64,000 nt of DNA from Parapedobacter luteus (GTDB taxonomy: Bacteria > Bacteroidota > Bacteroidia > Sphingobacteriales > Sphingobacteriaceae): contig NZ_FUYS01000015.1 of the NCBI RefSeq assembly GCF_900168055.1, forward strand, positions 1 to 64,000. Direction: 5' to 3'. Both the position numbers and the translations under genes were made by a program. Within the stretch, counting starts at the first letter, position 1. Each line of letters opens with the position of its first letter. Under the pieces are notes generated by a model, which saw only the letters and a list, made by a program, of their open reading frames with translations, was not told the DNA's origin and made no database searches. Below are positions 6,483 to 49,914 of the stretch, one piece after another.

Positions 6483-7538
6483 ATGAAGAGAATCCTTTCG
6501 ATAGACGGCGGCGGAATCCGCGGAATCATTCCGGGTATGTTGTTGGCGGCTTTAGAACGGAGATTAAAGCGTATAAGTAATAATCCGGATGCCGCAATCG
6601 CTGATTATTTCGACTTTTTTGCGGGCACCAGCACAGGGGGCATCCTTATCTGCTTGCTGCTGTGCCCCGATGACCAGACACCGCCCCGCCCGAGATTTTC
6701 GGCGAAAGAAGCATTGGACATTTATGTGACACACGGCAGCGATATCTTCAAGGCCGGTTTCTTCCGGCGACTGATGGCCAAATTTGGCCTATTGAGCGAA
6801 CGTTACCCCAGTGCAACCCTGGAGCATGTCCTGCAAGCCTACTTTGGCGAGATTAAACTGAGCGAACTTCTCAAACCATGTATCGTGACCGCCTATAATA
6901 TCGAGCTCCGTAAAACGCACTTTTTTAGGCAGCAGACCGCCATTGTGCGCGGCGATTCGCGCGACTTTTACTTGCGTGACGTCTGCCGGGCCACCTCGGC
7001 CGCCCCCACTTATTTCAGCGTCGCCGAAACATATTCCATCAGTGGCACGCGCTACCCACTGCTTGACGGCGGCGTATTTGCCCCCAACCCTTCGATGAGT
7101 GCGCTGGTGGAAGTCACGCGGGCGTTCAATGAAACCAAAATCAATGACATTGCTATTTTGTCTTTGGGCACCGGACGGTCAAGGAAAGCCTATGATTATG
7201 AACACTTCAAAAAGAGGCGGGCAATCTCCGTGGGGCCTGCCCTGATTGATATCATGATGAGCGGGGCCGCCGAAAGCAGCGACTTCTTCTTACAGCAACT
7301 GTATCGATCTGCCGGCAAAGCAGAGCAATATATCAGGATAGAGCCGAGCAACCTGCATAGCATACGTGAGGAGCTGGATGCGGCAAGCTATAACAATATC
7401 CAGAAATTAATCGCGCTGGGCGACAGGATGGTCAGCGAAAATGATGAGCTGCTGAATCAGCTGGCAGGTCAATTAATAAGCGAAAAGGAGCATTCGCAGA
7501 CCAGAAGCCCCTGGCGGTTTCTGTCTGCCAAAGGCTAA
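6483..7538 (+). CDS. Patatin-like phospholipase
   Basis: Predicted cytoplasmic lipid acyl hydrolase of the patatin/CapV fold, 351 residues without a signal peptide. The oxyanion loop DGGGIRG is at residues 8-14, the nucleophile elbow GTSTG at 48-52 (Ser50), and the catalytic Asp in LLDGGV (Asp195); the Ser-Asp dyad is therefore complete. Substrate is unknown. Patatins of this type also act as CBASS effectors, but no nucleotide cyclase or other defence gene is beside it. Neighbours are purL (divergent) and mgsA (same strand, about 30 bases on). It is more likely a housekeeping lipase. The start ATG directly precedes the conserved RILSIDGGG strand. Confidence 0.85.
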   Translation: MKRILSIDGGGIRGIIPGMLLAALERRLKRISNNPDAAIADYFDFFAGTSTGGILICLLLCPDDQTPPRPRFSAKEALDIYVTHGSDIFKAGFFRRLMAKFGLLSERYPSATLEHVLQAYFGEIKLSELLKPCIVTAYNIELRKTHFFRQQTAIVRGDSRDFYLRDVCRATSAAPTYFSVAETYSISGTRYPLLDGGVFAPNPSMSALVEVTRAFNETKINDIAILSLGTGRSRKAYDYEHFKKRRAISVGPALIDIMMSGAAESSDFFLQQLYRSAGKAEQYIRIEPSNLHSIREELDAASYNNIQKLIALGDRMVSENDELLNQLAGQLISEKEHSQTRSPWRFLSAKG

Positions 7539-28888: not shown

Positions 28889-29644
28889 ATGGATAAAAGC
28901 AGAAGAACATTTATCGGAAGGTCCCTCATGGGAGCAGCCTTGGCTGCCAATCTTCCTGAAATTGTAAAAGCAGCGACCACGTCGCCATACGCCGCACCCA
29001 ACGTGCAAATTCAGCAAAACGACGTCATCCTATTTCAAGGCGATTCCATTACCGATGCAGGGCGCGACAGAAGCCATCAAGCACCGAACAACGGCCAGGC
29101 CCTCGGTAATGGCTACGCATTCCTGGCTGCTGCACGCCTGCTACACGGGCATGCCGCTCATCAGTTAACGATATATAACAAAGGAATCAGCGGCAATAAG
29201 GTACACCAATTAGCCGAGCGTTGGGAAGAGGATTGCATCAACATCAACCCCAACATCTTAAGTATCCTCATCGGCGTCAACGACTACTGGCATACATTAT
29301 CGAGCGGGTATAGCGGCACGATACAGGTATACCGCGACGACTACCGCAAGCTACTGGATCGTACGTTGTCGGCAATCCCTAAGGTGAAGCTCATCATCGG
29401 TGAACCTTTTGCCGTAAACAATGTAAAAGCTGTGACAGACGCCTGGTTTCCGGCGTTCAATGAATACCGCCAAGCCGCACAGGAAATAGCGAACGAATAT
29501 AACGCTGCATTCATTCCTTACCAGCGTGTGTTTGATGAAGCCGCTAAGCGCGTATCGCCCGACTATTGGACCGGAGACGGTGTGCATACGACGTTGGCCG
29601 GTGCACAATTGATGGCCGAAGCATGGCTTTCTGTTATCAAATAA
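28889..29644 (+). CDS. SGNH/GDSL hydrolase with twin-arginine signal (probable acetylesterase)
   Basis: 251 residues. The N-terminus MDKSRRTFIGRSLMGAALAA has an SRRTFIG twin-arginine motif followed by a hydrophobic stretch, so Tat export is likely. The SGNH blocks are present: FQGDSITD (nucleophile Ser), the Gly/Asn blocks around KGISGNK and ILIGVNDYW, and GDGVHTTLAG (Asp and His). The family includes rhamnogalacturonan and xylan acetylesterases, so action on acetylated polysaccharide is plausible but unproved. It is followed by pncB on the same strand. Confidence 0.88.
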   Translation: MDKSRRTFIGRSLMGAALAANLPEIVKAATTSPYAAPNVQIQQNDVILFQGDSITDAGRDRSHQAPNNGQALGNGYAFLAAARLLHGHAAHQLTIYNKGISGNKVHQLAERWEEDCININPNILSILIGVNDYWHTLSSGYSGTIQVYRDDYRKLLDRTLSAIPKVKLIIGEPFAVNNVKAVTDAWFPAFNEYRQAAQEIANEYNAAFIPYQRVFDEAAKRVSPDYWTGDGVHTTLAGAQLMAEAWLSVIK

Positions 29645-29692
29645 TCAGACGCTATAAGCTGATTGCTGACTACCACCATAGCTGTGCCCAAT

Positions 29693-30856
29693 ATGATCAA
29701 TTCCATCTTGGACAATGACTTTTACAAATTCACCATGCAAAACGCCGTGGTGAAACTGTTTCCCAAGGCCAAAGCGAGGTACCAGTTTATCAACCGTGGA
29801 GGGCATCGGTTTCCCGATGGATTTGCCGAGGAACTGCGAAAATCAATTGATGAGCTGGCAAAGCTACAGCTTACCCGCCAGGAAAAACTTTTTTTTGCAA
29901 CTACCTGCCCTTATATCGATCCAACGTATTTCGATTTCCTGCAAGGCTACCGGTACGACCCCGAGGAAGTTTACATCAGCCAGCAGGACGACGAAATACA
30001 AGTGGCTATTGAAGGTTACTGGTATCGCACCATCCTATGGGAGGTCCCCATCATGTCGCTCATCTGCGAGCTGTATTACCGCCTGACGGCACAGCAGCGG
30101 CAGCCGGATGAAGCAATCATTGCTACAGCGCGTAGAAAAATCGAGCAATATCATTCACTGGGTGTCACCATTGCCGAATTCGGCACCCGAAGGCGGCATT
30201 CATACGGTGTGCATCGCCTGGTCGTAAAAGCACTCCAGCAATATGGCAAAGGTACATTCATCGGCACCAGCAACGTACACATGGCAATGCTCAACCAAAC
30301 CAAACCCATTGGCACCCACGCCCATGAATGGTTTATGTTTCATGCCGCAAAATACGGGTTTAAAATGGCCAATCTACTCGGGCTGGAACATTGGTCGGAG
30401 GTGTATCGCGGCGATTTGGGCATCGCACTCTCCGACACGTATACATCGGAGGTTTTCTTTTCTCAATTCGACAAAAAGCTCAGCAAGCTATTTGACGGTG
30501 TACGCCATGACAGTGGCGATCCGCTGTCATTTGCAGACAGCGCCATCAAACATTATCAGGCAAAAGGCATTGATCCACTTTCCAAGACCATCATTTTCTC
30601 CGATGGGCTGAATTACGAAAAAGTGGCTCGCATTGTAGAACATTGCCGTGGCCGTATCGGGATGTCTTTCGGCGTGGGCACTAACTTTACCAACGACGTG
30701 GGGGTGCCTCCCATGAACATTGTCATTAAGATGGTCGACGCATTTCCAGACGAGGCCCAATGGACACCCACCATCAAGCTTTCGGACGAACCCGGCAAGC
30801 ATACTGGCGATGCCGCAACCATTGCGCTGGCTAAACAGATCCTTCACATCTCCTGA
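29693..30856 (+). CDS. pncB: Nicotinate phosphoribosyltransferase
   Basis: Salvages nicotinate to nicotinate mononucleotide for NAD synthesis. 387 residues. Family features: ILDNDFYKFTMQNAV at the N-terminus, EFGTRRRHSYG, GTSNVHMA, the auto-phosphorylated His region GTHAHEW, and the phosphate-binding FGVGTNFTND. ATG at 29693 (MINSILDNDFYKF) is chosen over a TTG at 29663. The next gene begins one base after its stop, so they are co-transcribed. pnuC, another NAD-precursor gene, lies elsewhere in the window (56595-57227). Confidence 0.95.
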   Translation: MINSILDNDFYKFTMQNAVVKLFPKAKARYQFINRGGHRFPDGFAEELRKSIDELAKLQLTRQEKLFFATTCPYIDPTYFDFLQGYRYDPEEVYISQQDDEIQVAIEGYWYRTILWEVPIMSLICELYYRLTAQQRQPDEAIIATARRKIEQYHSLGVTIAEFGTRRRHSYGVHRLVVKALQQYGKGTFIGTSNVHMAMLNQTKPIGTHAHEWFMFHAAKYGFKMANLLGLEHWSEVYRGDLGIALSDTYTSEVFFSQFDKKLSKLFDGVRHDSGDPLSFADSAIKHYQAKGIDPLSKTIIFSDGLNYEKVARIVEHCRGRIGMSFGVGTNFTNDVGVPPMNIVIKMVDAFPDEAQWTPTIKLSDEPGKHTGDAATIALAKQILHIS

Positions 30857-30857
30857 T

Positions 30858-31559
30858 ATGGCCAACGACGTACTTGGGAATGCCCTGACTGACTATTTCC
30901 ACGGCAAGCGCCGTGATAAGTTGCTACTCCATACCAGTTATACCGATATCGAAGAAATGCCCGTAGATGTATTTTTCCGAAAACCTGAAAATTTTCCGGA
31001 ACTGGAAGATATTGCGTTGGCCTTATGCGATGGCCATGTGCTTGACGTCGGGGCCGGTGCAGGAAGCCATGCACTATACCTCCAAAGCCGGGGCATGGCG
31101 GTAACCGCACTGGAGCGCTCCCCGCAAGCCTGCGCACTCATGCAAGAACGTGGCGTCCGAAATATCATTCAGGCAGACTTCTTCCAACACCACGGCAGCA
31201 AATACGACACCCTCCTATTCATGATGAATGGTATCGGCATCGCCGGCAGCATCGATGGACTGAAAAAACTGCTTCGACACAGCCAATCGCTATTGAGCGA
31301 AGGTGGCCAGTTACTGTTTGACTCTTCGGATATTGCTTACCTCTATGCGGATGGTTCGGTAAAAAGACCCTCGGGGTACTACGGTGAGATAAGGTACCAA
31401 TACGGATATCAAGGAATCTGGGGTGAACCTTTCAACTGGCTATTTATTGACCAGCAGACCTTAATCCAGCTTGCCAATACCGAAGGCTGGGTCGTCCAAA
31501 TCCTGTATGAAGACGAAACCGACCAATACTTGGCAAGGATGGTTCCCCGCTCGCTGTAG
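30858..31559 (+). CDS. Class I SAM-dependent methyltransferase
   Basis: 233 residues, substrate unknown. The SAM-binding motif I is HVLDVGAGAGSHALYLQ (about 61-77), motif II has TALERS with an acidic residue, and FMMNGIGI stands at the motif IV position. The ATG at 30858 lies one base after the pncB stop; a longer frame upstream only overlaps pncB. Its last codons (CGC TCG CTG TAG) are the start of the 111-bp sequence that is repeated near 37139. Confidence 0.85.
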   Translation: MANDVLGNALTDYFHGKRRDKLLLHTSYTDIEEMPVDVFFRKPENFPELEDIALALCDGHVLDVGAGAGSHALYLQSRGMAVTALERSPQACALMQERGVRNIIQADFFQHHGSKYDTLLFMMNGIGIAGSIDGLKKLLRHSQSLLSEGGQLLFDSSDIAYLYADGSVKRPSGYYGEIRYQYGYQGIWGEPFNWLFIDQQTLIQLANTEGWVVQILYEDETDQYLARMVPRSL

Positions 31560-31658
31560 CTAAAAAAAAGGGGCTGGGAGCCCCTTTTTAGCGATAGAAT
31601 TGTTTTGAGTTCACAAACACATAATACAAGCGGACAATTCTGGGAAACCGCTGGTATG
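31548..31658. repeat. Direct repeat copy A (111 bp) flanking the first SusCD unit
   Basis: This sequence is repeated at 37139-37250 with a single difference (one extra C at 37153). It starts inside the last codons of the methyltransferase gene, includes a bidirectional terminator, and ends seven bases short of the susD stop codon. Its second half also holds an 8-bp inverted repeat (AGAATTGT 31596-31603, ACAATTCT 31634-31641) and a 5-bp one (AGCGG/CCGCT). Confidence 0.97.
31565..31589. terminator. Bidirectional terminator between the methyltransferase and susD
   Basis: AAAAAGGGGCT and AGCCCCTTTTT form a perfect 11-bp stem with a three-base loop; the A/T ends serve both directions. It ends the methyltransferase transcript and the convergent SusCD transcript. 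The same hairpin recurs at 37157-37181. Confidence 0.92.
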
Positions 31659-31664
31659 CGGATA

Positions 31665-33152
31665 TTATCTCCACCCACCATTTGAAGTACCGATACCATC
31701 GGCGGCAGCGACTGTTCCAAATGTATAGAACTCTGTTAACCCTAAATTCTGGAGTAATGCACCCGGCAATGGCAAATGCAAGGGGGTACCAATTTGTAAA
31801 AGGTCTAACTTTCTCATTTGAAAAAACTGTACCCCAAAGCCGGTCGTGTGAAGCTCTACATGTCTTTCATGGTGAATCGCTTCAATAATATCATCAAAGT
31901 CAGCAGCTACGGGATCCAAGTTACCCCTCGTAACACGGGTACCTGCATTGATAATAGCAGCTGCGCCTGCTAGATCGCCTAAATAGGCCCTCGCCTCCGC
32001 TCTCAGCATATCGTTCTCGGCTAACGCCACGGTTGGTTTCGATCCGATATTCGGCTGAAAAACGGCATCGTACCTTTTTAACCTATAGCAACTGAAGTGA
32101 TAATACCCTCGGTCAGCAATAAAATCATTGGATGGCATATATTGAAAATCTGTCTTTAAACGGTTATCCAAAGCGGTTGCAGGTTCAGGGGGAGTTGGGA
32201 AATCACCGCGGTCTTCCCAATAAGCAGGCAAAGACGGCTCCATCATGTTAACCACGTACATATCGGTCCTTCCCCAACCAACGCGTCTTAGATAGTCTCC
32301 TGAATTAAAGTACCATCTGGTTGTACCGTCTTGCAAGACAAGCCAATCAGCAGTAATACCGTTGTCCGCGTAAGCACGTACTCGAGCCCAATCCACGTCA
32401 ACAACGGCTGCGTTGTTTCTTGGAAGATAGGAAAGGATACGGGCCGCAGATGTATTAATGATCTTACTAAAATCAGCACTGCTTACATCGGCAGGTGCGC
32501 CTAACCAGCTTGCAGGAATGGTGAAAGATTCATTGGATAACGCCAACGCTTCTTCCAGATAAGCGATAGCGGCCGATGCAACTTCCTCATAGGGAACAGC
32601 AGTCTCAAGTGCAGCATCAACTGTTTTGGTCTCATCAACGATATGGGCCCTGTCAAATACCAGTGCTAAATTTCCATAGGCAAGACCTAAGGTAAATTTG
32701 GCAAAAGCCCGGGTACGGTTGTTATCGGCTCCATTAGCGCCAATCTGAACCCCTCCATCAATGGCTCTCAACACGTTCGAAGCCGTGCCGATAGCCGAGT
32801 ACCATCGATTATAAGAGTTGTTCGTCTGACCGCTATTAGCATAGGTGGGAGAATTGTCCCAAGCGAAATTCCGAGGCTCCCAAGACATGTCCCGCATACC
32901 GAAGTTACCAAATGAACAGGTCACATTATCTGCTGCCGTTGCTAACATTGGTTGTACGCCGTTCGTGTTATTTTCTCCAATAAAGACTGCATTGTAGAGA
33001 CCCGAGGCCACATTTTCCACGTCAGGGCCCGTAGCATATACTCTTGCAAAATCCGGGTTATTTTCATTTGGAATGTCCAAGATGTTGTCTTCGCAACCGA
33101 CTAGGCCCGCAGAAACAAAAGAGAAAAGAAGTAATCTATGTAATTTTTTCAT
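31665..33152 (-). CDS. SusD/RagB-family nutrient-binding lipoprotein (first pair)
   Basis: Surface lipoprotein that forms the lid of the SusC channel and binds glycans or peptides. 495 residues. Lipoprotein signal with lipobox LVGC (Cys20), then TPR-like helical repeats with SusD features (VASGLYNAVFIGENN; an RAEARAYLGDLAGAAAIINA segment; the C-terminal EAIHHERHVELHTTG, like the ERRRELxxEG motif of the family). The ATG at 33152 was chosen by the signal peptide. It lies 19 bases after susC. Nutrient is unknown; no glycoside hydrolase accompanies the pair. Confidence 0.93.
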   Translation of the reverse strand: MKKLHRLLLFSFVSAGLVGCEDNILDIPNENNPDFARVYATGPDVENVASGLYNAVFIGENNTNGVQPMLATAADNVTCSFGNFGMRDMSWEPRNFAWDNSPTYANSGQTNNSYNRWYSAIGTASNVLRAIDGGVQIGANGADNNRTRAFAKFTLGLAYGNLALVFDRAHIVDETKTVDAALETAVPYEEVASAAIAYLEEALALSNESFTIPASWLGAPADVSSADFSKIINTSAARILSYLPRNNAAVVDVDWARVRAYADNGITADWLVLQDGTTRWYFNSGDYLRRVGWGRTDMYVVNMMEPSLPAYWEDRGDFPTPPEPATALDNRLKTDFQYMPSNDFIADRGYYHFSCYRLKRYDAVFQPNIGSKPTVALAENDMLRAEARAYLGDLAGAAAIINAGTRVTRGNLDPVAADFDDIIEAIHHERHVELHTTGFGVQFFQMRKLDLLQIGTPLHLPLPGALLQNLGLTEFYTFGTVAAADGIGTSNGGWR

Positions 33153-33171
33153 GTTTTTAATTTTTTTTATT

Positions 33172-36100
33172 TTACAAATTGAACCCGAGAGAGAACGCAA
33201 GGTTGCGATAGATAGGGTTGGTTCCAATCCCGTCAAGAGGTTGTCTCAAGGTACCTACTTCTGGATCATAGCCCGAATAATTTGTAAATGTAAATAGGTT
33301 TCGACCTACGGCTTTGAACGTAAGCCCTTTAACGGTGCCATTCAAAAAACCGCTAAGCGCTTTTGCAGGAATGGTATATCCGATTGCCACTTCCCTCAGC
33401 TTTAAATACGAGGCGTCTTCCACCCAGTAAGCATTGGCATTATTGCCATCGTACATTCCAACGGTCCAGTAGGAGGCCGCTTTCTTTTGACCATCCGGCA
33501 CGTTGGTCATATCCTGCCGCTGACTGACATTGTTGAACGCCATACGCTGCTCATTACTGTTGTATACGTCGCCTCCATTTTTCCAGTCGAGCAGCACATA
33601 GAGCGTAACCCCTTTGTAATTAAACGTATTGGCAATACCCATGTTAAACTTGGCGTTTCCATCCCCTATTTTGCCCAACCAAGGCGCACCGTTTTCGGTG
33701 TAGACAACCGGTCGTTCAGTTGTCGTGCCTTCCGTTCCCGCAAGGATCACGTAGCCTTCACTATTCACCGTATAATCAGAAATACTCGCTCCTGCTGGAA
33801 GCTGTCTCGCCATTTCGTCTAAGGTTCTTACCATCCTGCGACCATAAATAGCACCGTAAGTCTCCCCTTCCGCAATACGGAATGCATTCACATCGCCATT
33901 AACCGCATTTAACCAATATGCAGGAATCGGTAATTCGGTGATTTGTTGGCGAATTCTGGAAAACACAATGTTAGAGCTCCAGGAAAAGTTATTCTTTCTC
34001 AACCAGTTGGCCCCCAACATCAACTCTAACGTATTCGATTCGACGGTACCGGCATTTTGCCGCTGACTGGTAAATCCATCGTTTAAGAAGCCAATAAGTG
34101 GAACATTAAGAAACTGATCCGTGGTTTTCGAGCGCGCATACACGCCTTCAAACGTAAATTTTTTAAGGAAATCAACATTTAAACCGAATTCGAGTTCTGC
34201 AGTTTGGGAGGGTCTCAACTCCGTGTTACCTTTTTGGCTTGCAGTTGCCACCCCCGAAGACAGGGTATATACTTCATATTGCCAAGCGAATTCAGGGCGT
34301 ATTCCGGCAGTACCGTAAGCCGCCCTTACTTTCAATTCGTCTATGCCCCGAATATTTACATCCTGAGATATCCGATAAGCTCCTGATATCCTGTAGTACG
34401 GATTCCAGCGTGCATCGGGACCAAACAACGAAGATCCGTCATAACGGAACATACCGTCCAACAAATACCGGTCTTTGTAATCCAGCCCTACAATAGCAAA
34501 ATAGTTTTGCGCCCTTTCTTTCTCTTTGCTGGAGGCGGCACTATTGATGGCGGTGAAATTGTTAAATGCCTCTATATCGGTCACTATAAATGCGGAAGCC
34601 TGTGTATTTGTTCGTTCATAGTTGCGGTTTTCGTATAAGTACGACAACTTGGAATTGACCCTCAAATCGCCAAACTGCTTACTCAGGTTAAGCGTGATTT
34701 GTGTGTTGTAAGTAGCGAATTCCTCACTCTCATGTTGAAGCGAACCATTTGTGTAAGCAGTAGCCGCAGCGTTCCATGTATCTTTGGGATTAATCACTTC
34801 CCTTCTGTAATTTTCAATTTCCAGGGTTTGGCTGACATCGAGGTTAGCCCATTCTGTGAACTTGACATTGGCTGAATAGTTACCCATCCAGCGGCGGGTA
34901 TTCCTATTATCGCGCTGTTTATATAAAGGGTACAGTGGGTTGGTTACCTCTGAATTAAAGTGATTCACTCTTATATTATAAGGCTGACCATCTGAATTAG
35001 GGGCAAACAAATCGATATCTTTCTCCATACGGGCCACATTATAGAATATACCTGACGGTTGCTCTATCTTCCTATTTATAAACAAGTTTGTGGCACTTAC
35101 AGTTAACCAGGGGGCTAGTTCTTGGTCGATATTGAAACGGTAATTTTGTCTTTCATACCCATCGCGGTGAGCCACCACTCCTTGTTGAACATTATTTTCA
35201 AAAGATAAATAAATGTTATTTTTCTCAGACCGATTAGATACACCAATAAAGTTAGTCAGCGTATTGCCTGTCTGAAACACATCTGCCGGATTAAAACGAT
35301 ATACACCATACGGGTTATCCATATAGCCGTCATCATCGATTATCCTGGATCCCGAAATGCCAGCGTTATACCCGCCTGTATAACCGTCTGGAAAAGTAAC
35401 ACCAGCATATTTGGTATACTGGCCTCGGTATTGTTCCCAATCATCAGCAAGTTTATACATGTGTGATTCTGAAGTTTCCATGTAACGCTGAAGATTTTGA
35501 AAGCCTACTTCATTTCGAACGGTAACCTGTGTCTGTCCTAAAGCACCACTTTTACCTCTTTTGGTAGTAATAGAGATAACGCCGCTTCCCGCACGTGAAC
35601 CATAAAGAGCCGAAGCAGCGGCACCTTTTATGACTTCCATAGATTCCACATCGTCCACGTTGATATCGGCAAGGCTACCCTGCATGATGATACCGTCAAT
35701 CAAAATAAGCGGGGAGGCACTGACGCCCAATACATTATCCCCCCTAAGCAGGATGTCTGCCTGTTGACCGGGGGCGCCCCCTACCGAAGACGTCCTCAAG
35801 CCTGCTACTTTTCCCGTCAACGCAGAAGAAAGCGAAGTAGCAGGTACCGCGTTAAGTTGAGCTTCCCCAATCTTGGTTACTGACACAGTCATTTTCCTTT
35901 TGTCGGTAGCCCCTGCTACCCCGGATACAATCACTTCGTCCAATTGCTGTGCGTCAGTAAGCATGGAGACATCCACTAACGAACTTTCACCGACCGTGAT
36001 GCGCTGTTCCGCGTGACCGAGATAGGTAAAAATCAGTACATCTCCAGTATTTGCCACGATAGTATATCGGCCGCTGTCGTCGGTAGACGTCGATGTGGGA

Positions 36101-36246
36101 GCCCCCACTACGCGAACGCTGACACCGCTCAGCGGCGAATTGCTCTCGGCGCTGACGACAGTACCGCTGATCCTTTTGTCTTGTGCATACGCCGATCCGA
36201 TCAGCAATATACCCAACATGAAAAACCCAAGTAATTTTTGTTGCAT
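33172..36246 (-). CDS. SusC/RagA-family TonB-linked outer-membrane transporter (first pair)
   Basis: TonB-dependent channel importing the ligand bound by SusD. 1024 residues: signal peptide (1-21, ending SAYA-Q), a carboxypeptidase-regulatory-like domain (about 25-105, RISGTVVSAESNSPLSGV), a TonB-box-like region (LDEVIVSG), plug domain with the SusC signature GAAASALYGSRAGSGVISITTK in part (about 205-228), then a 22-strand barrel ending NLAFSLGFNL. Transcription is from a promoter about 400 bases upstream. It is intact, unlike the second susC. Confidence 0.95.
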   Translation of the reverse strand: MQQKLLGFFMLGILLIGSAYAQDKRISGTVVSAESNSPLSGVSVRVVGAPTSTSTDDSGRYTIVANTGDVLIFTYLGHAEQRITVGESSLVDVSMLTDAQQLDEVIVSGVAGATDKRKMTVSVTKIGEAQLNAVPATSLSSALTGKVAGLRTSSVGGAPGQQADILLRGDNVLGVSASPLILIDGIIMQGSLADINVDDVESMEVIKGAAASALYGSRAGSGVISITTKRGKSGALGQTQVTVRNEVGFQNLQRYMETSESHMYKLADDWEQYRGQYTKYAGVTFPDGYTGGYNAGISGSRIIDDDGYMDNPYGVYRFNPADVFQTGNTLTNFIGVSNRSEKNNIYLSFENNVQQGVVAHRDGYERQNYRFNIDQELAPWLTVSATNLFINRKIEQPSGIFYNVARMEKDIDLFAPNSDGQPYNIRVNHFNSEVTNPLYPLYKQRDNRNTRRWMGNYSANVKFTEWANLDVSQTLEIENYRREVINPKDTWNAAATAYTNGSLQHESEEFATYNTQITLNLSKQFGDLRVNSKLSYLYENRNYERTNTQASAFIVTDIEAFNNFTAINSAASSKEKERAQNYFAIVGLDYKDRYLLDGMFRYDGSSLFGPDARWNPYYRISGAYRISQDVNIRGIDELKVRAAYGTAGIRPEFAWQYEVYTLSSGVATASQKGNTELRPSQTAELEFGLNVDFLKKFTFEGVYARSKTTDQFLNVPLIGFLNDGFTSQRQNAGTVESNTLELMLGANWLRKNNFSWSSNIVFSRIRQQITELPIPAYWLNAVNGDVNAFRIAEGETYGAIYGRRMVRTLDEMARQLPAGASISDYTVNSEGYVILAGTEGTTTERPVVYTENGAPWLGKIGDGNAKFNMGIANTFNYKGVTLYVLLDWKNGGDVYNSNEQRMAFNNVSQRQDMTNVPDGQKKAASYWTVGMYDGNNANAYWVEDASYLKLREVAIGYTIPAKALSGFLNGTVKGLTFKAVGRNLFTFTNYSGYDPEVGTLRQPLDGIGTNPIYRNLAFSLGFNL

Positions 36247-36310
36247 GTGTTTTTGATTTGGTTAATGAATAATGAACGACTACTACTATCCGAAAAAACG
36301 GATCCCTTTA

Positions 36311-36326
36311 CGGATATATATATCCG
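36311..36326. promoter_or_regulatory. Perfect 16-bp palindrome in the first susC leader
   Basis: CGGATATATATATCCG is self-complementary and lies about 65 bases before the susC ATG. It may form a hairpin in the leader RNA or bind a dimeric protein. No regulator gene is adjacent. Confidence 0.4.
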
Positions 36327-36642
36327 ATATTGTCAGCCAGGCACACAAATTACTCGTATGCGGCACTATACGTTTGTTTCCATCACTAAATAGAGACCCC
36401 GCTCACAATACTTCTTCGTACTTAATTCTTAAGGTCGATTAGACGGGCAACAAGCTTGCTTCTACTTAATGCCGTTGCTTGACTCAATGGTTTAGAAACT
36501 TTAGTAAGTTTTTTTCAATTACGTGTTGTTTTGTTTTAAAAAACATGTGTTTGTTTGAGATAATCACACCAATTAGCAATAATTAAATACAATAACCTCA
36601 ATATATAAAGACAAAAAGATTAAAAACAACCAATTATATTTT

Positions 36643-36673
36643 CAAATGTAAATCAATTGCAATAAATAACAAA
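36643..36673 (-). promoter_or_regulatory. Promoter of the first susCD operon
   Basis: On the minus strand TTTG (36673-36670), 19-base spacer, TACATTTG (36650-36643): a full match to the Bacteroidota consensus. The predicted start near 36639 gives a leader of about 390 bases. The second susC has the same -7 box and a similar flank. Confidence 0.7.
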
Positions 36674-37138
36674 ATAAAATTAAATAATTACAAATAAAAT
36701 ACAAAAATTATAATATAATACTAAAAATTAATCGCATTTATATAAAAAATTAAATAAAACAATGCTTTTTTAATGAAAACACCAAGAGAATAGCAAAAAA
36801 AATAAGAAAAAAAGCAATTAAACATTCGTTTTTTTCAAAAAAAAAAAAAACAAAACAACCAAGAAAATGACCAAAACATCAATAAAATTGACACAGCTGC
36901 TGCGTCATCAACGATGAAATATCAGCACATTACACGCAGGGCCGTTATACAACGGATTTCCGGTATACTCCGTACATTTGTCCTCATCTATACAAATAAC
37001 GGAGACGGAATAACAACCGTTAATCACACGGTTTCAATGGCTGTATACGGATAGTAGATAATGTTGTTTAGTTCAGCGATGCGGTTAGAACCGACGCTCC
37101 TCAAACCCAAAACTTCATTTGGGCAAATCTGTATTATT

Positions 37139-37250
37139 CGCTCGCTGTAGCTCAAAAAAAAGGGGCTGGGAGCCCCTTTTTAGCGATAGAATTGTTTTGA
37201 GTTCACAAACACATAATACAAGCGGACAATTCTGGGAAACCGCTGGTATG
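37139..37250. repeat. Direct repeat copy B (112 bp) flanking the first SusCD unit
   Basis: Identical to 31548-31658 except for one additional C (37153). It begins with CGCTCGCTGTAG, the last codons of the methyltransferase gene at copy A, although no such gene is here. That suggests copy A is the original place and copy B the derived one. It ends 42 bases short of the stop codon of the lipoprotein gene of the second SusCD operon. Confidence 0.97.
37157..37181. terminator. Terminator hairpin in repeat copy B
   Basis: The same perfect AAAAAGGGGCT/AGCCCCTTTTT stem as in copy A, downstream of the second SusCD operon on the minus strand. It can act in both directions. Confidence 0.9.
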
Positions 37251-37292: not shown

Positions 37293-37814
37293 CTAAGGCC
37301 TCAGATAAGTTGTAAACGTGCTGTAATTCTCGCTTACTCCTACTTCGTTATGCCCCAATAACCTAAGCGTTAATGAGCGGGTTTCCCCTGCATCCAAACT
37401 GCCAGGAGTAGGATTTATCAGGATATATGTACTGGAAGTACCAGCGGGTAAAACAATAGTTCTCGTGCCAGCATTAACAAAGTCGTAATGAGTACCCTCT
37501 ATGGCCGTACTACTTTCGTCAATAGTATATTCAATATCAATGTCACGGCTCAACTGAGGACCAACCAGCTGAACCAATATTGAATCGGTGCCGCGATTAT
37601 CCACCGAAATATACCTGCTAGTCAGCGTTTGTGCTGTACCCGTTCCACTCGGGAATACACCCACGGGGGTATAAGTGGTATTTCTTCCCAACAAATGGTT
37701 TTTAAATTCGACAACTGTTGGTCCGGCATAAATTATTTCTCGTTCGTCCATGCAAGCTACGCAGGCTACAGACGCTAAGAATACAAAGCAAAAATATATA
37801 CTTATCTTTTTCAT
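37293..37814 (-). CDS. SusCD-associated lipoprotein (DUF4843/Calx-beta-like)
   Basis: 173 residues, third gene of the second SusCD operon. A lipoprotein signal precedes Cys18 or Cys21 (SVAC/CVAC). The body is beta-rich, with the pattern TAIEGTHYDF, an LPAGTSSTYILI strand and AGETRSLTLRLLG, as in DUF4843 and Calx-beta-type surface proteins often found beside SusD. It probably helps bind ligand at the cell surface. The ATG at 37814 is preferred to a TTG at 37829. The gap to susD is 30 bases. Confidence 0.75.
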   Translation of the reverse strand: MKKISIYFCFVFLASVACVACMDEREIIYAGPTVVEFKNHLLGRNTTYTPVGVFPSGTGTAQTLTSRYISVDNRGTDSILVQLVGPQLSRDIDIEYTIDESSTAIEGTHYDFVNAGTRTIVLPAGTSSTYILINPTPGSLDAGETRSLTLRLLGHNEVGVSENYSTFTTYLRP

Positions 37815-37844
37815 GTTCGTTCGTTTCAAATTACTATATGCAGA

Positions 37845-39296
37845 TTAATACCCAGGGTTCTGAGGCAAATCCGGATTTAACAGAATTTGCGAATTTGGAA
37901 TTCCAGCAAGCATGCGATGATGATCATGGGCCAGAAAACCTACACCACCGATTACAGCTGCAGATTTTGTCACACCATTCCCCCAACGCTTGAGATCAAA
38001 GAAGCGGACTCCCTCGAAATGAAGCTCCCGATTACGTTCATCTTTGATATAATCGACAATCCGAACATCTGTCGGCACGACATCCACGGATGCATTCCGC
38101 GCCATCCTTAATTGCACAATCAGTTCCGCAGCGGCACTGTATTGACCCAACGCAGCTAACGCCTCGGCCTTCATGAGCAATACATCGCTGTAGCGTACAA
38201 TAATCAAATGGTCTGCATACAATCCTGCCGCACCATTGTATTTGTTAGACCAATAATACTGCGGATGCCGATCGTCTACATAAATGAGTCCCAAGCGGCT
38301 GTCTCCCTCCTCGAACGAATTGTATAACTCCGGGCTGATCGTCTGCCCGCCAAACGTAGAAATGCCGTTCCAAAGCGGGGCATGCGTATAGGAGTATAGC
38401 GAGTTATTTGATCCAAGGGATTGAGTGCTCCAATCCATCCACAGTTGGGTGAAAGCCTCGGGGTTCATTTCCGAGGTAAAGGCAGCGACAATATCATCGG
38501 TCAACGTCGCCGAACTGTTTGCAAATGCCGCGTCGAAATCATCAATGGCCTGCTGATACCTCTCCCAATACAGGTAAAGTGTACCCCTAAGTGCGTAAGC
38601 AGTGCCCAATGTAAAATAACGGACAGGATTGCTGGGAGTTGATGCGTTGGCGAAAAGGGAAATTGCTTCGGTCAGATCGCTCTCAATCTGCGTATAGGTC
38701 TCGATAATCGACGACCGGCTCATCGGTTGGGCATCAGCAAAACTACCTGTGGGAGTCAACCTCAAAACAGCCGATCTATCAAAACCAGCCCCCGCACCAG
38801 TGGTAGGAATTTTATTGGGCTCGTAGCCGTACACGCGGGCAAGATTGAAATAAGTGAGTGCACGTATCGTATAAGCCTGCGCCAGAATACTGTTTCGCGT
38901 AGGCTCCTGAGATGGCGTGACAGGTAAGCCCGGTGTCTTATCCAGCACCTCGTTCACATCATTAATGACGTTATAGCTCTGTGCCCAAATATTGTAATGC
39001 GCTCCCTGATCATTCCGATTAACGGTATTCCACCGTTGGCCAGCCAAATCCGCATCGGTCACAATGTTATCCGCGAGCGCATCCCCCATGAGCTTCAAAT
39101 CTCGTCCGTAGAGTTGACCGTCACCTCCCCTAATCAACCTATTGTATGCAGAATTCAATACAGACTGTGCTGCATCAATGTCAGTGAATACGGCACTGGC
39201 AGAGAGATTGTTTTGCGGATCTACTTCAATCAAGCTTTCACACGAGGAAAATACAATCCCAAAAACCGCTAGATATATTAAAGTTCTCTTTTTCAT
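37845..39296 (-). CDS. SusD/RagB-family nutrient-binding lipoprotein (second pair)
   Basis: 483 residues. Lipobox FSSC with Cys19, followed by ESLIEVDPQNNLSA, a typical SusD start. The N-terminal half has TPR-like helices (ALRGTLYLYWERYQQAIDDF), and the C-terminal part has RYSDVLLMKAEALAALGQYSAA-type and DERNRELHFEGVRFFDLKRWG-type segments, the strongest family signatures (each longer than quoted here). It follows the frameshifted susC by 11 bases. Without a working SusC partner its function may be lost or served by another SusC. Confidence 0.95.
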   Translation of the reverse strand: MKKRTLIYLAVFGIVFSSCESLIEVDPQNNLSASAVFTDIDAAQSVLNSAYNRLIRGGDGQLYGRDLKLMGDALADNIVTDADLAGQRWNTVNRNDQGAHYNIWAQSYNVINDVNEVLDKTPGLPVTPSQEPTRNSILAQAYTIRALTYFNLARVYGYEPNKIPTTGAGAGFDRSAVLRLTPTGSFADAQPMSRSSIIETYTQIESDLTEAISLFANASTPSNPVRYFTLGTAYALRGTLYLYWERYQQAIDDFDAAFANSSATLTDDIVAAFTSEMNPEAFTQLWMDWSTQSLGSNNSLYSYTHAPLWNGISTFGGQTISPELYNSFEEGDSRLGLIYVDDRHPQYYWSNKYNGAAGLYADHLIIVRYSDVLLMKAEALAALGQYSAAAELIVQLRMARNASVDVVPTDVRIVDYIKDERNRELHFEGVRFFDLKRWGNGVTKSAAVIGGVGFLAHDHHRMLAGIPNSQILLNPDLPQNPGY

Positions 39297-39307: not shown

Positions 39308-42300
39308 TTAAAATGTGATGTTTGCCCCAAAAGTAAATGTGCGTGGGTGGGGATAAACGTTCATGCTATTATTCGTTGCAGTGTTTTCCGGGTCTTCGCC
39401 GGTATATTTCGTGATAGTCCAAAGATTCATCCCTTGAGCAAACAAACGGACGCTCTGGATACCGGTACCGGACAGCACCGAAGACGGCAAACTGTAACCA
39501 AATGTCAATTGCTTTAAGCGGATATACGAAGCGTCCTGCAGCCATCGCGATGAAAAGGTCGTAATGGCTACGCTTCCGGGCTCAGCACCGTTATAAAATG
39601 GTCGAGGCACACCAGTAATGTCACCAGGCTGGGACCAAGCGTCATACAACTGGCTTTTCAGTTGATTGTACCCGTATGCGCCGGATAATTCCAGCGGGTA
39701 ATTCATATCCGTCCACGCCATATTCCCATACTGATACTGGAATAGCACGTCGAGAGAAAACCCTTTATAACTAAATGTATTGGTCCAACCGCCGAAGAAA
39801 TCAGGGTCGTAACTTCCGTATGCACGACGGTCATCTGCTGAAATTGGGGAATACGTGATATTTCCATTGATGTCGTAATACATTGCCCTGCCGTCAGCAG
39901 GATTCACACCCGCCCAGGGAATGGTATACACTTGATTCAGTTTCTTTCCTACTGTGTACCGTCCGTCATTGATCTGCGGGTTTCCGTCACGATCCAACGC
40001 CGCATCCTCATTTAATTCAAGGAGTTTGTTATCTATAAGGGCTATATTGAATGATGAAGTCCATTTAAAACCGCCGGCATCAACAGGCACACCCCCCAAT
40101 TCCAAATCAATACCCTCCATTCTAGCCCGCCCCGCATTGACCGTGATACTGCCGTACCCAGAATCTTGGGGAATTTGTTGAGATAGCAACATTTGGTTGC
40201 GGTGGTTGCGGTAGATATCAAACGAACCAAAAAGCCGATTACGGAATAGCCCGAAGTCCAAACCCAGATTGATGGACTCTACCTCCTCCCAGGTCAGATC
40301 AGCAATTCCAATTTGGTCAGGACGCAAAGTAGGCTGCCCATTGTAAGCAGCGCCAGCACCTGGTGAACTAAATAGGGTCATGGCCGCGAAATTGCCAATA
40401 CCGCTTTGATCCCCTGTTACGCCGTAGCTTGCCCGTAACTTTAATTCGTTCACAAACCGTACGTCAGACAGGAAATTCTCCTCAGAAAGTCTCCAACCCC
40501 CGGACAACCCGTAGAATAAACCAAACTTGTTATCTGCGCCAAACCGCGAGGAACCGTCATAACGTACGTTGCCCGAAAGCAGATATTTGCCCTGATAGTC
40601 ATAATTCACATTTCCGATTACACTAGCCAACTTGAATCCAGTGAATGTCGAACCATAGCCCGTATTCGTGGAAGCTTGGCTGATCAAGCGCAACATAGTA
40701 TTTGGAAAGCCCTGGGCAGATGCGCTTAACACCCTTTGCGTATAATCACGATATTCCACCCCTGCCATTGCGCTGAAGTTATGATCTGCCCCGAACACCG
40801 TATTGTAGTTTGCCGTCAAACTCGTGTTCCAGTTCAATGTCCGATAATAGTTTTCTGCCCCAGTACCACCGGTACCGGCGTACGCGGGAATACTTGAAGG
40901 CCGATAATTGAAGTTCCGTGCATCAGTAAAATCAACACCCCCATAAGCCCGGACACGCAACCCTGGAATAATGTCATAGTTCAGTGCAATTGTACTAATT
41001 GTTCCATAAGTATTCGTTTCTCGATCTTCTTCATGCAGCACTTGCACAATATTATAACCGTAACCATTAATCAGGTCGTTGTTCCATCCACCTTCTTCGT
41101 CATAGATCGGATTAAGTGTCGGCACCAACAAGGCTCCTGTAAAGGGTGTATTGGTGTAAAACCCATTTCCATGAGCAGGGCCTCGGGAAATTGTATTGTG
41201 AAGGTTTATGCGAGTCTCAATCGAAAACTTATCAGACGCACGATGCTCCAAGTTCGCTCGAAGGTTTCCTCGTGTAAAATCTGACCCGATATTCGTTCCT
41301 TCAGTTTTATTATACCCACCGCCGATAAAAAAGCTTGTTTTTTCACTGCCTCCTGAAAAAGAGATGTTATATTGCCCCATGTTGCCCTTCCGAAATACGG
41401 CATCATACCAGTTTATATTTGGAATACTTGCGGGATCTGGGTTGTTCGGAGATCCGTAAAGCCTATTGTTCCATGCACGTGTACCATTTTCGCCATTCCC
41501 AGACACTACTAGGTATTGGTTATAGTATGCTTGCCGGTATATCTCATAATACTCTGGACCTGTGGCTAAATCATAGGGATTTGGATTTTCCTGGAAACCC
41601 TGCTGAATATCCACTTTAATAACAGTCCTTCCAGCTTTACCCTTTTTGGTGGTGACAAGCACTACCCCGTTAGCGGCCTGCGCACCGTAAATCGAAGCTG
41701 TTGCAGCATCCTTCAGGACCTGGATAGATTCGATATCCTCCTGATTAATAAATGAAAATAGATTTTGAGTGGTTTGGGTTGACAATCCCCCCGGATTCAT
41801 CTGCACACCATCGATGATATACAAGGGTTGCGCACTTCCATTTACCGAAACAGCACCACGGATATTAACATTCAACCCGCCCCCTGGTTGCCCTCCATTA
41901 GACGTGACCTGAACGCCGCCCAACCGGCCCTGCATTGCCCTGTCAAAAGACTGCGTCGGCAGGTTTTCAATTTCTCCGCCCGACAAGACCGATACCGACC
42001 CTGTCAAACTTTGCTTTTTCAACTCCTGACCATAACCGGTAACAATCACTTCTGTTAATACAGAAGCGTCTTCTGATAACCTGACATTAATTACGTCGCC
42101 TGAGCCTATAGGCACCTCCTGCTCGGCATAACCGATTGAACGAAAAATCAATGCTGTAGCCCCACTTGGAATAGCAATCGAGTAATTGCCCTTCCACATC
42201 GGTTTGGACGCCAATTTGTACATCCTTTACAATGACCGAAACACCTGGAATTGGGCTTCCGTCCCCAGCTGAAGTCACTGAACCGCTGATTCTTCTGTCT

Positions 42301-42365
42301 TGGGCGTATAGTGCTCCACCGAACAATGTCGCCAACATAAAGAAACATAGTAATTTTTGTTTCAT
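39308..42365 (-). pseudogene. SusC/RagA-family TonB-linked transporter with a frameshift (second pair)
   Basis: The ATG at 42365 opens a signal peptide (MKQKLLCFFMLATLFGGALY) and the start of a carboxypeptidase-regulatory-like domain. That frame is lost after QTDVEG, and the rest (NYSIAIPSGATALIF onward, about 960 residues with TonB box, plug and barrel to the end FTFGANITF) continues in another frame. The total of 3058 bases is one more than a multiple of three. Removing one base of the GGG at 42189-42191 (minus strand) restores a 1018-residue SusC. It may be a true mutation or a sequencing error. The downstream susD and lipoprotein genes are intact. Confidence 0.9.
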
Positions 42366-42749: not shown

Positions 42750-43127
42750 ATGGCCAAAATAAACACAAAAACACTGGGGGAGATCATCAAAGAGACGATG
42801 AAAGAGCGGGGAATCAAGGGATCGGTTGTGGCCAGAAAGATGAACGTGTCAAGGCAAACGATCAATCAAATCGATCTGCGCAAAAAATTTGACATCGAGT
42901 TTCTCCAGAGCTTCAAGGAAGCCTCCGGGCTGGATTTTACTAAGCATGCCTTTGATGACGTGATGGATAAGATGCCGGAGGAGCAAAAGGTCAAATACTT
43001 GGGTCAGCAACCCAAAATAACTGTCAACATCAGCATCTCTGCCAATAAAGAAAGCCTTGAAAACCTGCCCACCTTTATCAAGCAAGTAGAAGACCTTGGA
43101 AAACGCTACGGGTTTGAACTTGTTTAA
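42750..43127 (+). CDS. Small helix-turn-helix DNA-binding protein (XRE-like)
   Basis: 125 residues. An N-terminal XRE-type helix-turn-helix is visible (about 8-60): LGEIIKETMKERGIKGSVVA, then RKMNVSRQTINQIDLRK. The C-terminal half (PKITVNISISANKESLENLP) looks like a small beta-alpha domain, perhaps for dimerisation. It is divergent from the second susC operon and could regulate it, but such proteins are also found without a linked target. Its stop overlaps the serS stop (TTAA). Confidence 0.7.
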   Translation: MAKINTKTLGEIIKETMKERGIKGSVVARKMNVSRQTINQIDLRKKFDIEFLQSFKEASGLDFTKHAFDDVMDKMPEEQKVKYLGQQPKITVNISISANKESLENLPTFIKQVEDLGKRYGFELV

Positions 43128-44395
43128 TCAATCCACTCAAATCCGGTATAAGGCACCAACACTTCCGGTATTTTAATCCCCCTGTCCGTTTGGTTGTCTT
43201 CCAAAATACACGCCAATATACGGGGTAAGGCCAATGCACTGCCATTAAGCGTATGCGCCAATTGCATTTTACCGTTTTCACCCTTGAAGCGTACTTTCAG
43301 CCGATTGCTTTGGTAGGTTTCGAAGTTGGAAACGGAAGACACCTCCAACCAGCGCTTTTGGGCTGCGCTCCATACTTCCATATCATAGGTAAGTGCAGAC
43401 GTGAAGCCCATATCCCCGCCGCAAAGGCGCAGTACCCGATACGGGAGGTTCAGCGCTTGTAGCAGCGACTGCACATACGTGCTCATGGTTTCCAGCACCT
43501 CGTACGATGTATCGGGATGCACGAGCTGTACGACCTCCACCTTATCAAATTGGTGCAGGCGGTTTAATCCGCGCACATGCGCACCATATGATCCGGCTTC
43601 CCGCCGGAAACAGGGCGTATAGGCCGTGAGTTTTATGGGAAAATCGGTTTCCTTCACTATGGTATCACGGTAAAGGTTTGTCAACGGTACTTCGGCGGTA
43701 GGGATCAGGTAAAGATTGTCGATACCGACGTGGTACATCTGCCCTTCTTTGTCGGGCAACTGGCCCGTACCAAACCCGGAAGCTTCATTGATTAAAATCG
43801 GCGGCTGTACTTCCCGGTATCCAGCTTTTTCGGCCTGGTCAAGGAAGAAATTAATCATCGCACGCTGCAGACGGGCACCTTTGCCTTTATACACCGGGAA
43901 GCCAGACCCCGAGACTTTGGTACCGAGTTCGAAATCGATGATATCGTATTTTGTGGCAAGTTCCCAGTGCGGCAGGGCATTGTCCGGTAATTCAGGACGG
44001 TGGCCGTGCTCCAGCACCACCTCGTTGTCTTCCGCTCCGGCACCTCTGGGCACGGTGTGGTGCGGCAGGTTAGGCAGGAGTACCAGCTTTTCGTAAAGGT
44101 CGGCCTCAACTAACGCTTGCTCATCGGCCAGCTTTTTCTGCTGTTCCTTATACCCGCCGGAGCGTGCTTTGATAGCTTCCGCTTCGTCGCGTTTCCCTTG
44201 GCGCATCAACTCGCCGATTTGCCGTGCCGCAGCATTAGCTTCCGCTGCAAGGGCATCAGATTCAGTCTGGATTTCCCTGCGCCGTTCATCCAGCGCAATC
44301 ACTTCATCCACCAGTTCCAATGCTTTGAAATTCCGGAGAGCCAGGCGTTCAATCACCTGATCGCGGTTTTCACGAATATAATTAACTTGCAACAT
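43124..44395 (-). CDS. serS: Seryl-tRNA synthetase
   Basis: Charges tRNA-Ser. 423 residues. The N-terminal tRNA-binding coiled coil (about 25-105) is rich in Glu, Ala, Lys and Arg. The class II core shows motif 2 around TPCFRREAGSYG and motif 3 near NGSALALPRILACILE; the IPTAEVPLTNL segment is typical of SerRS. The ATG at 44395 begins MLQVNYIRENRDQVIERL, as in relatives. Convergent with the HTH gene with a four-base overlap. Confidence 0.97.
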   Translation of the reverse strand: MLQVNYIRENRDQVIERLALRNFKALELVDEVIALDERRREIQTESDALAAEANAAARQIGELMRQGKRDEAEAIKARSGGYKEQQKKLADEQALVEADLYEKLVLLPNLPHHTVPRGAGAEDNEVVLEHGHRPELPDNALPHWELATKYDIIDFELGTKVSGSGFPVYKGKGARLQRAMINFFLDQAEKAGYREVQPPILINEASGFGTGQLPDKEGQMYHVGIDNLYLIPTAEVPLTNLYRDTIVKETDFPIKLTAYTPCFRREAGSYGAHVRGLNRLHQFDKVEVVQLVHPDTSYEVLETMSTYVQSLLQALNLPYRVLRLCGGDMGFTSALTYDMEVWSAAQKRWLEVSSVSNFETYQSNRLKVRFKGENGKMQLAHTLNGSALALPRILACILEDNQTDRGIKIPEVLVPYTGFEWID

Positions 44396-48917: not shown

Positions 48918-49020
48918 AGTTTGTAAAATTAACAATTCGGAATGAATTTGCATATCATTGTGTTTTTCCCGAAATTTGTTTAAACCGGCTACGAAAATGG
49001 GTACGGCCGGACAGGTGACC

Positions 49021-49914
49021 ATGGATTGGAAGCACGCCATCAACGATTTCAAGCACTACCTTCAATTGGAGCGGGCCGTATCGGCCAACACCGTGGAAGC
49101 CTACCTCAATGACGTGACCAAGCTGTGTCAGTTTGCCGAACCGCGGGGTATTCTGCCCGATGCGGTCACCGCAAGCCAACTGCAGGATTTCTTAGCATGG
49201 ATTAACGGCTTCGGGCTGTCTGCCTATAGTCAGGCGCGCATCCTGTCGGGCATCAAGACATTTTACCTGTTTATGAGCCTCGAATACGGACTAATCGAAA
49301 ATCCCACCGCCTTGATTCAGGCTCCGCGGCTTGGACGCAAGATCCCCGATGTACTCAACATCGTGGAAATAGACCGCCTCATCGCCGCTATCGATCTATC
49401 CACGCCTGAAGGCATACGCAACAAGGCCATGCTTGAAGTGTTATATGGCTGCGGTTTGCGGGTCAGCGAATTGGTCGGACTGAAGCTATCCAACCTATTC
49501 CTCGACATCGAATTTATCAAGGTCACGGGCAAGGGAAACAAGGAACGCCTCGTCCCCATTGGCAGCCAAGCCATCAAACACCTCCGCATCTACGTAGAAG
49601 AAGTACGTATCCACCAAAAAATAAAGGCGGAATGTGCCGACTTTGTGTTCCTTAACCGACGTGGATCGCCGCTTACCCGCGTAATGGTATTCCTCATTAT
49701 TAAAGAACTGGCCAACGCCACCGGACTGAAAAAGAAAATCAGCCCCCACACCTTCCGCCACTCCTTCGCCAGTCACCTGGTCGAGGGAGGTGCTGATTTG
49801 CGAGCCGTCCAGGAAATGTTGGGCCACGAAAGCATCACCACAACCGAAATCTATACACATGTCGACCGCGATTACCTGCATTCCGTCATCACGCAATACC
49901 ACCCACGTTCGTAA
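49021..49914 (+). CDS. xerD: Tyrosine recombinase XerD
   Basis: Chromosome-dimer resolution recombinase. 297 residues, the standard XerC/D length. SAM-like N-terminal DNA-binding domain (1-85), then the catalytic domain with Arg in YGCGLRVSELVGL, Lys in VTGKGNKERLVP, His-x-x-Arg in HTFRHSFASHL, His in MLGHESI and the nucleophile Tyr in EIYTHVDRDYLH. The ATG at 49021 (MDWKHAINDFKHYL) is preferred over 48997. Its chromosomal context with housekeeping genes argues against a mobile-element integrase. Confidence 0.92.
   Translation: MDWKHAINDFKHYLQLERAVSANTVEAYLNDVTKLCQFAEPRGILPDAVTASQLQDFLAWINGFGLSAYSQARILSGIKTFYLFMSLEYGLIENPTALIQAPRLGRKIPDVLNIVEIDRLIAAIDLSTPEGIRNKAMLEVLYGCGLRVSELVGLKLSNLFLDIEFIKVTGKGNKERLVPIGSQAIKHLRIYVEEVRIHQKIKAECADFVFLNRRGSPLTRVMVFLIIKELANATGLKKKISPHTFRHSFASHLVEGGADLRAVQEMLGHESITTTEIYTHVDRDYLHSVITQYHPRS

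Follow-up and report, generated by a model that had tools for sequence, protein, structure and literature searches.

A repeated element in the 3' untranslated regions of Parapedobacter luteus susCD operons is a candidate small RNA family predicted to pair with susC start codons

We analyzed a stretch of 64,000 nucleotides (nt) from Parapedobacter luteus (NZ_FUYS01000015.1, positions 1 to 64,000; here called the window), in which two susCD operons lie between a methyltransferase gene and serS, each followed by one copy of a nearly identical repeat. The conserved unit of the repeat is an RNA element of ~95 nt on the minus strand. It is found in the 3' untranslated region (UTR) of the first operon (copy A, 31562-31656) and of the second, susCDE, operon (copy B, 37154-37248), and it ends in an intrinsic terminator; the methyltransferase tail that is also repeated is extra to this unit. 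In a special group of susC genes, the region around the start codon is complementary to a loop of the element. Conservation, terminator, location, and complementarity are all established by the comparisons described below. On this basis, the repeat probably belongs to a family of 3'-UTR-derived small RNAs (sRNAs) that would repress susC translation by start-codon pairing, mainly in trans.

A conserved RNA element forms the tail of both operons

The first-pass annotation of the window had described two repeats of 111 bp (31548-31658 and 37139-37250) that are the same apart from one C. This was borne out by the sequence itself, by a repeat finder, and by BLAST, and the same three approaches gave a mismatch-free core of 97 bp (31562-31658, identical to 37154-37250). 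An exact repeat of this length is not due to chance. The core is preceded by a shared 14-bp extension, CGCTCGCTGTAGCT, with one added C in copy B. As had also been described, both copies are directly 3' of a susCD operon (final stop codons, 31665 and 37293), and both contain the terminator stem GGGGCT/AGCCCC plus an 8-bp inverted repeat, AGAATTGT/ACAATTCT. The element starts ~9 nt past the susD1 stop codon in operon 1 and ~45 nt past the last gene in operon 2, its 5' end being defined by conservation only. A BLAST search of the P. luteus genome found these two close copies only, plus one diverged relative on contig C19.

An alignment of 11 copies from this and related genomes (see below) revealed a common order of TACC-GCGG-TTTCCC-AGAATTGT-CCGC, GTGTTTGTGAA, AAAACAATTCTATCGC, and a terminator hairpin with a T run. 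For both copies in the window, the predicted fold of either strand scored better than those of shuffled sequence (z, -2.4 to -3.9), a score to which the terminator contributes. Stem S1 pairs TACCAGCGG with CCGCTTGTA (31648-31656 with 31625-31633 in copy A, spanning 31625-31656; 37240-37248 with 37217-37225 in copy B, spanning 37217-37248; minus strand). Its inner pairs vary among copies and the pairing is kept: the inner stem, GCGG/CCGC, is found in nearly all copies, pairs 4-5 occur as G-C, A-U, G-U, and C-G, and nine standard pairs are formed in the copy from Olivibacter. The terminator hairpin, GGGGCTcccAGCCCC followed by T8 in copy A (31570-31584, minus strand; 37162-37176 in copy B), has arms that covary among copies, and in the C19/C11 copies and in Olivibacter its stem is swapped for a different paired sequence. 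In a further helix, S2, AGAATTGT (31634-31641) pairs with ACAATTCT (31596-31603; whole helix, 31596-31641, minus strand of copy A), and this helix is nearly invariant. S2 could form either a pseudoknot with S1 or an alternative long helix. The seed, UUAUGUGUUUGUGAA, is the same in copy A (31610-31624) and copy B (37202-37216), lies on the minus strand, and is complementary to susC start regions. No match to the element was found in Rfam at either the gathering or permissive thresholds.

The loop matches the start codons of a group of susC genes

The susC genes of the serS-site operons have a common leader and signal-peptide stretch of ~107 bp, the leader reading AACCAAATTCACAAACACATGAAACA, and their bodies are ~24-49% identical, the shared first operon (see below) excepted. 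In this special susC group, the start-codon region reads AUUCACAAACACAUGAAA, and its reverse complement, AUGUGUUUGUGAA, is found in the RNA loop; the loop sequence UCAUGUGUUUGUGAAU is the reverse complement of the leader across the start codon. The best match in the P. luteus genome is in trans, in the susC gene beside rpsF/rplI (target at G000:C10:100488-100507, where G000 is this genome). Its longest duplex with G-U pairs allowed is 15 bp, and 13 Watson-Crick pairs plus one G-U were counted. With G-U pairs likewise allowed, the longest duplex in P. koreensis is 18 bp, with 12 bp formed with each of its own two operons; in P. tibetensis it is 16 bp with two susC genes and 13 bp with a small gene (91 codons open); and in Olivibacter it is 12 bp, both with its own susC and with another susC. 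Both partners differ in sequence in Olivibacter; the pairing has moved by a few bases and the AUG is still covered.

None of 300 shuffled RNAs matched the duplexes of 15, 18, and 16 bp. Neither duplex energy nor duplex length with unlimited G-U pairs distinguished targets well from background, after which the Watson-Crick-only length was adopted. By this measure, 13-18 contiguous pairs were found over start codons versus 8-11 in controls: 30 other P. luteus susC genes, with 96 candidate starts, gave no more than 8-9, and the 347 ATGs in the window gave no more than 9-11. Sites that resemble the 20-nt target, at three mismatches or fewer, lie over a susC AUG at only a few places per genome; P. 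luteus has at least 56 susC genes. The start region of susC1 in the window, TCAAAAACACATG (36244-36256, minus strand), gives 9 contiguous pairs with the seed, or 11 of 12 with one mismatch.

From these features we infer that the RNA is transcribed, builds up in the cell, and represses its targets by pairing with them there. When a susCD operon is transcribed, its 3' end would be released or would persist as an sRNA of ~95 nt, made of a stem, a possible pseudoknot, an exposed seed loop, and the intrinsic terminator. The seed would then pair with the start-codon region of susC mRNAs having the same leader, and translation would be blocked. The main target in P. luteus would be the rpsF-locus susC in trans, with susC1 a weaker target and susC2 not a target. 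An expressed operon would reduce the output of another transporter and, in some species, its own.

The element is narrowly distributed and mostly follows susCD operons

A covariance model was used to search 251 genomes of the family and 400 genomes of the order, with one genome per species in the comparisons. Twelve convincing copies were found in 7 of the 400 order genomes, namely, those of six Parapedobacter species and Olivibacter sp. XZL3 (G022); the other 393 order genomes gave no copy by this model. The remaining handles needed here are G003 (P. koreensis), G004 (P. pyrenivorans), G005 (P. indicus), and G007 (P. tibetensis). Eight of the 12 copies form the tail of a susCD or susCDE operon (two each in P. 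luteus, P. koreensis, and P. tibetensis and one each in P. pyrenivorans and Olivibacter). In these eight, no more than ~45 nt separate the final stop codon of the operon from the element, which shares the operon terminator. The Olivibacter copy is at a different locus and is also 3' of a susCD operon. At the serS site, two copies occur without susCD (G005 and G006). Stand-alone orthologous paralogues (G000:C19 and G003:C11) are located between the genes for 5-formyltetrahydrofolate cyclo-ligase and a HAD/ACT-domain protein. These paralogues (the former at G000:C19:45118-45182, ~9110-9210 of L043; the latter at ~9600-9700 of L042) carry a different loop, UUCAUGUA / UUUAUGUAA, and a target search for them gave no site above the reversed-pattern control.

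Several other candidates were rejected. Weak covariance-model matches (E, 1e-4 to 0.1) occurred in other genera, and among the twelve inspected only the one from Olivibacter had the motif. Motif matches on genome contigs of two metagenome-assembled genomes, from Bacteroidia and Riflebacteria, overlapped coding sequence, had no terminator, and were taken as chance. A match in G008 (C100:21713) was dropped as a further copy, as the sequence there lacks the element. A riboswitch acting on the downstream gene was also rejected, since that gene is not consistent.

A same-leader susC occupies a second variable site in Parapedobacter

The other Parapedobacter genomes have one same-leader susC beside rpsF/rplI or in an apparently corresponding neighborhood, and its body differs from species to species. 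The neighborhood was compared in the genomes other than G006, over 20 kb of sequence that in G002, G004, G007, and G008 does not include rpsF/rplI itself. No RNA element was found at the rpsF locus; weak matches at susC leaders sit on the strand opposite to susC. This locus is a second variable susCD site (G000:C10:97343-100516, L138/L139, with corresponding loci L140-L146). Weaker further copies of the leader and signal-peptide stretch are present in this genome at G000:C7:349-441 and G000:C6:147149-147248. The small P. tibetensis gene mentioned above (91 codons open; L037, ~7124-7399, minus strand) lies just past the RNA and has a lipoprotein-like start with the same leader and target. In Olivibacter, the susC adjoining the RNA is split into two frames by a frameshift or an error (L082, 12194-15255, minus strand).

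Operons turn over at the methyltransferase-serS site

The 5.6-kb unit bounded by the repeats had initially been proposed to be an insertion or recombination module. Comparison of relatives for presence or absence showed that the site does turn over between Parapedobacter species, which have 0, 1, or 2 susCD operons there. In G001, G002, and G008, the methyltransferase gene and serS abut or are ~8 bp apart with nothing between them; in G005 and G006, the site consists of the RNA and a DUF6266 gene; G004 has one susCDE operon; and G000, G003, and G007 have two operons. A tree of serS plus the methyltransferase gene intermixes empty and occupied species, some of its branches being weakly supported, and several gains or losses are therefore indicated. 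P. koreensis has the first operon of the window at the corresponding position, the DNA being 84% identical over 29601-36537 and the proteins 91-94% identical. The second is unrelated to that of P. koreensis, and apart from short susC leaders, homology resumes only at the RNA and the small helix-turn-helix gene. Therefore, the 5.6-kb unit is old, and its neighbor is the part that was exchanged.

The likeness of RNA copies is 96-99% within a genome, as against mostly 83-90% between species, which makes gene conversion between copies plausible. The near-identity of the copies is best explained by such recombination, although recent acquisition from the same species would give a similar likeness within a genome. 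As first described, the 12 bp that end the methyltransferase gene recur at the start of copy B. The original of this stretch is at 31548-31559 and the displaced 3' end, CGCTCGCTGTAG, at 37139-37150 (both plus strand), and we read the latter as a recombination scar. It would fit the arrival of an allele whose second operon stood directly beside the methyltransferase gene, the arrangement seen in P. pyrenivorans, where the RNA directly follows the stop codon.

The part of the initial proposal that was not supported is the role of the 111-bp repeat as the end of a mobile unit. That the repeat is a DNA recombination site, at which the 5.6-kb susCD unit enters and leaves as a mobile or switchable cassette, would account for the strong turnover of operons at the serS site, the likeness of copies within genomes, and the displaced methyltransferase tail, and the ~107-bp leader and signal-peptide stretch could be the other crossover point. 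We nevertheless consider it unlikely. Copies exist without susCD at unrelated sites (G000:C19 and G003:C11), terminator and S1 pairing are maintained through sequence change, the seed matches susC starts, and the 5.6-kb unit is at the same place in P. koreensis. No recombinase or transposase belonging to the unit was found; the exact motif was absent from viral contigs, and phages and plasmids gave nothing beyond short, mostly terminator-like chance matches. Switching was not observed, the data including no long reads.

Weighing an sRNA against a plain or cis-acting 3' UTR

The position of the element right behind operon stop codons and its strong terminator would also suit a plain 3' UTR, one that only terminates transcription and protects the mRNA end, with the likeness of copies due to duplication and gene conversion and an incidental match to susC starts. 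We think this improbable, since a terminator alone would not need the conserved GUGUUUGUGAA loop. Neither the excess of contiguous Watson-Crick pairs over start codons (13-18 versus 8-11 in controls) nor the copies away from susCD operons would be expected from it. Action in cis, in which the 3' UTR would fold onto the 5' end of the same mRNA and control translation of its susC, draws on the own-operon pairing in P. koreensis, P. tibetensis, and Olivibacter but is very unlikely, as the trans target in P. luteus pairs far better than susC1, susC2 is unpaired, and two serS-site copies have no susCD at all.

Several observations weigh against an sRNA that silences susC. The pairing with susC1 is not significant alone (equaled in 44 of 300 shuffles), and susC2, with its changed leader and frameshift, gives no significant match. 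Nor does the susC of P. pyrenivorans or the rpsF-locus susC of P. indicus, a species with a solitary RNA that is the most divergent of the serS-site copies. The family is narrow, with few independent lineages. Helix S2 is invariant, and the pseudoknot is hence without covariation support. In addition, the same susC leader is kept in three species without the RNA. Because these species keep it, the leader is conserved for another reason, and the RNA would exploit it.

More tentatively, the sRNA reading can be extended to the turnover of operons. The operons at the serS site might be swappable units with a silencing RNA as their tail, the sRNA of whichever operon occupies this hot spot turning off the transporter at the rpsF/rplI site. 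This would be an RNA-based, RbpB-independent choice of transporter and would offer a link between operon turnover and surface-transporter choice.

Comparison with known regulators of susC and transporter operons

Control of SusC translation by sRNAs is already established in Bacteroides. The FopS sRNAs of Bacteroides thetaiotaomicron are multicopy and repress susC translation by pairing at the start codon; they number 14, one of them 3'-UTR-derived, measure ~65-70 nt, have their seed within the first 21 nt, and are antagonized by RbpB, a protein with an RRM domain (PMC11697453). The Parapedobacter RNA resembles them in being multicopy and in the complementarity of its seed to the susC start-codon region. 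Unlike FopS, it is ~95 nt long, its seed is internal (~nt 33-47, counted from a 5' end set by conservation), and most copies form the tail of susCD operons themselves. RRM_1 (PF00076, the RbpB type) was not found in five carrier genomes, whereas a Bacteroides control was positive. Because the layout differs and RRM_1 was not found in these carriers, the RNA does not qualify as a FopS member by these tests. If the proposed function is correct, an independent family in environmental Sphingobacteriaceae without detectable RRM_1 would suggest that susC start-codon silencing arose more than once.

In Vibrio cholerae, the sRNAs OppZ and CarZ derive from 3' UTRs and repress the very operons that encode them (PMC7398697). 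The element described here also maps to the 3' UTR of a transporter operon and shares the operon terminator (8 of 12 copies). Own-operon pairing of this type is found in P. koreensis, P. tibetensis, and Olivibacter, is weak for susC1, and is absent for susC2. Unlike OppZ and CarZ, the P. luteus RNA has its strongest predicted target in a second operon elsewhere, and the phyla are unrelated. DonS-like RNAs of Bacteroides are cis-antisense RNAs, divergently encoded at susC, that lower the expression of susC homologues (PMC7366714). A lowering of this kind is predicted for the Parapedobacter RNA, which, unlike DonS, is on the same strand and downstream of the operon. The variable site itself can be compared with another arrangement. 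In the DNA inversion systems for SusC-type surface proteins of Bacteroides, the susC genes at one site have the same 5' end but differ in their bodies. A common susC 5' end with differing bodies at one site is also seen here, but no invertible arrangement or dedicated recombinase was seen, and the variation is between species, not within one genome.

Other genes at the site

The variable site is bordered on the left by the methyltransferase gene (30858-31559, plus strand), which adjoins pncB, and on the right by serS (43124-44395, minus strand). The first operon consists of susC1 (33172-36246), for a SusC/RagA TonB-linked outer membrane protein, and susD1 (31665-33152), with a weak match to Pfam SusD-like_3. 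The second comprises susC2 (39308-42365), susD2 (37845-39296), and a third gene in a SusE-like position that has no family match (37293-37829); all five genes are on the minus strand. The leader ATG of susC2 is at 42365, with a one-base frameshift before the long open reading frame from 42223, and the frameshift (42150-42365) possibly reflects a pseudogene or an assembly error. Adjoining susC2 is a small gene for a probable helix-turn-helix protein (42750-43127, plus strand); each of the other three species that carry susCD at the serS site has the same gene. In both susCD-free species that have the RNA, the DUF6266 gene follows it (L039, 9714-10481; L041, 10001-10777). A gene for a XerD-type tyrosine recombinase is near the site (48958-49914). 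A homologue with 84.5% identity adjoins the susCD-free site of G006, and this gene is therefore probably a housekeeping one.

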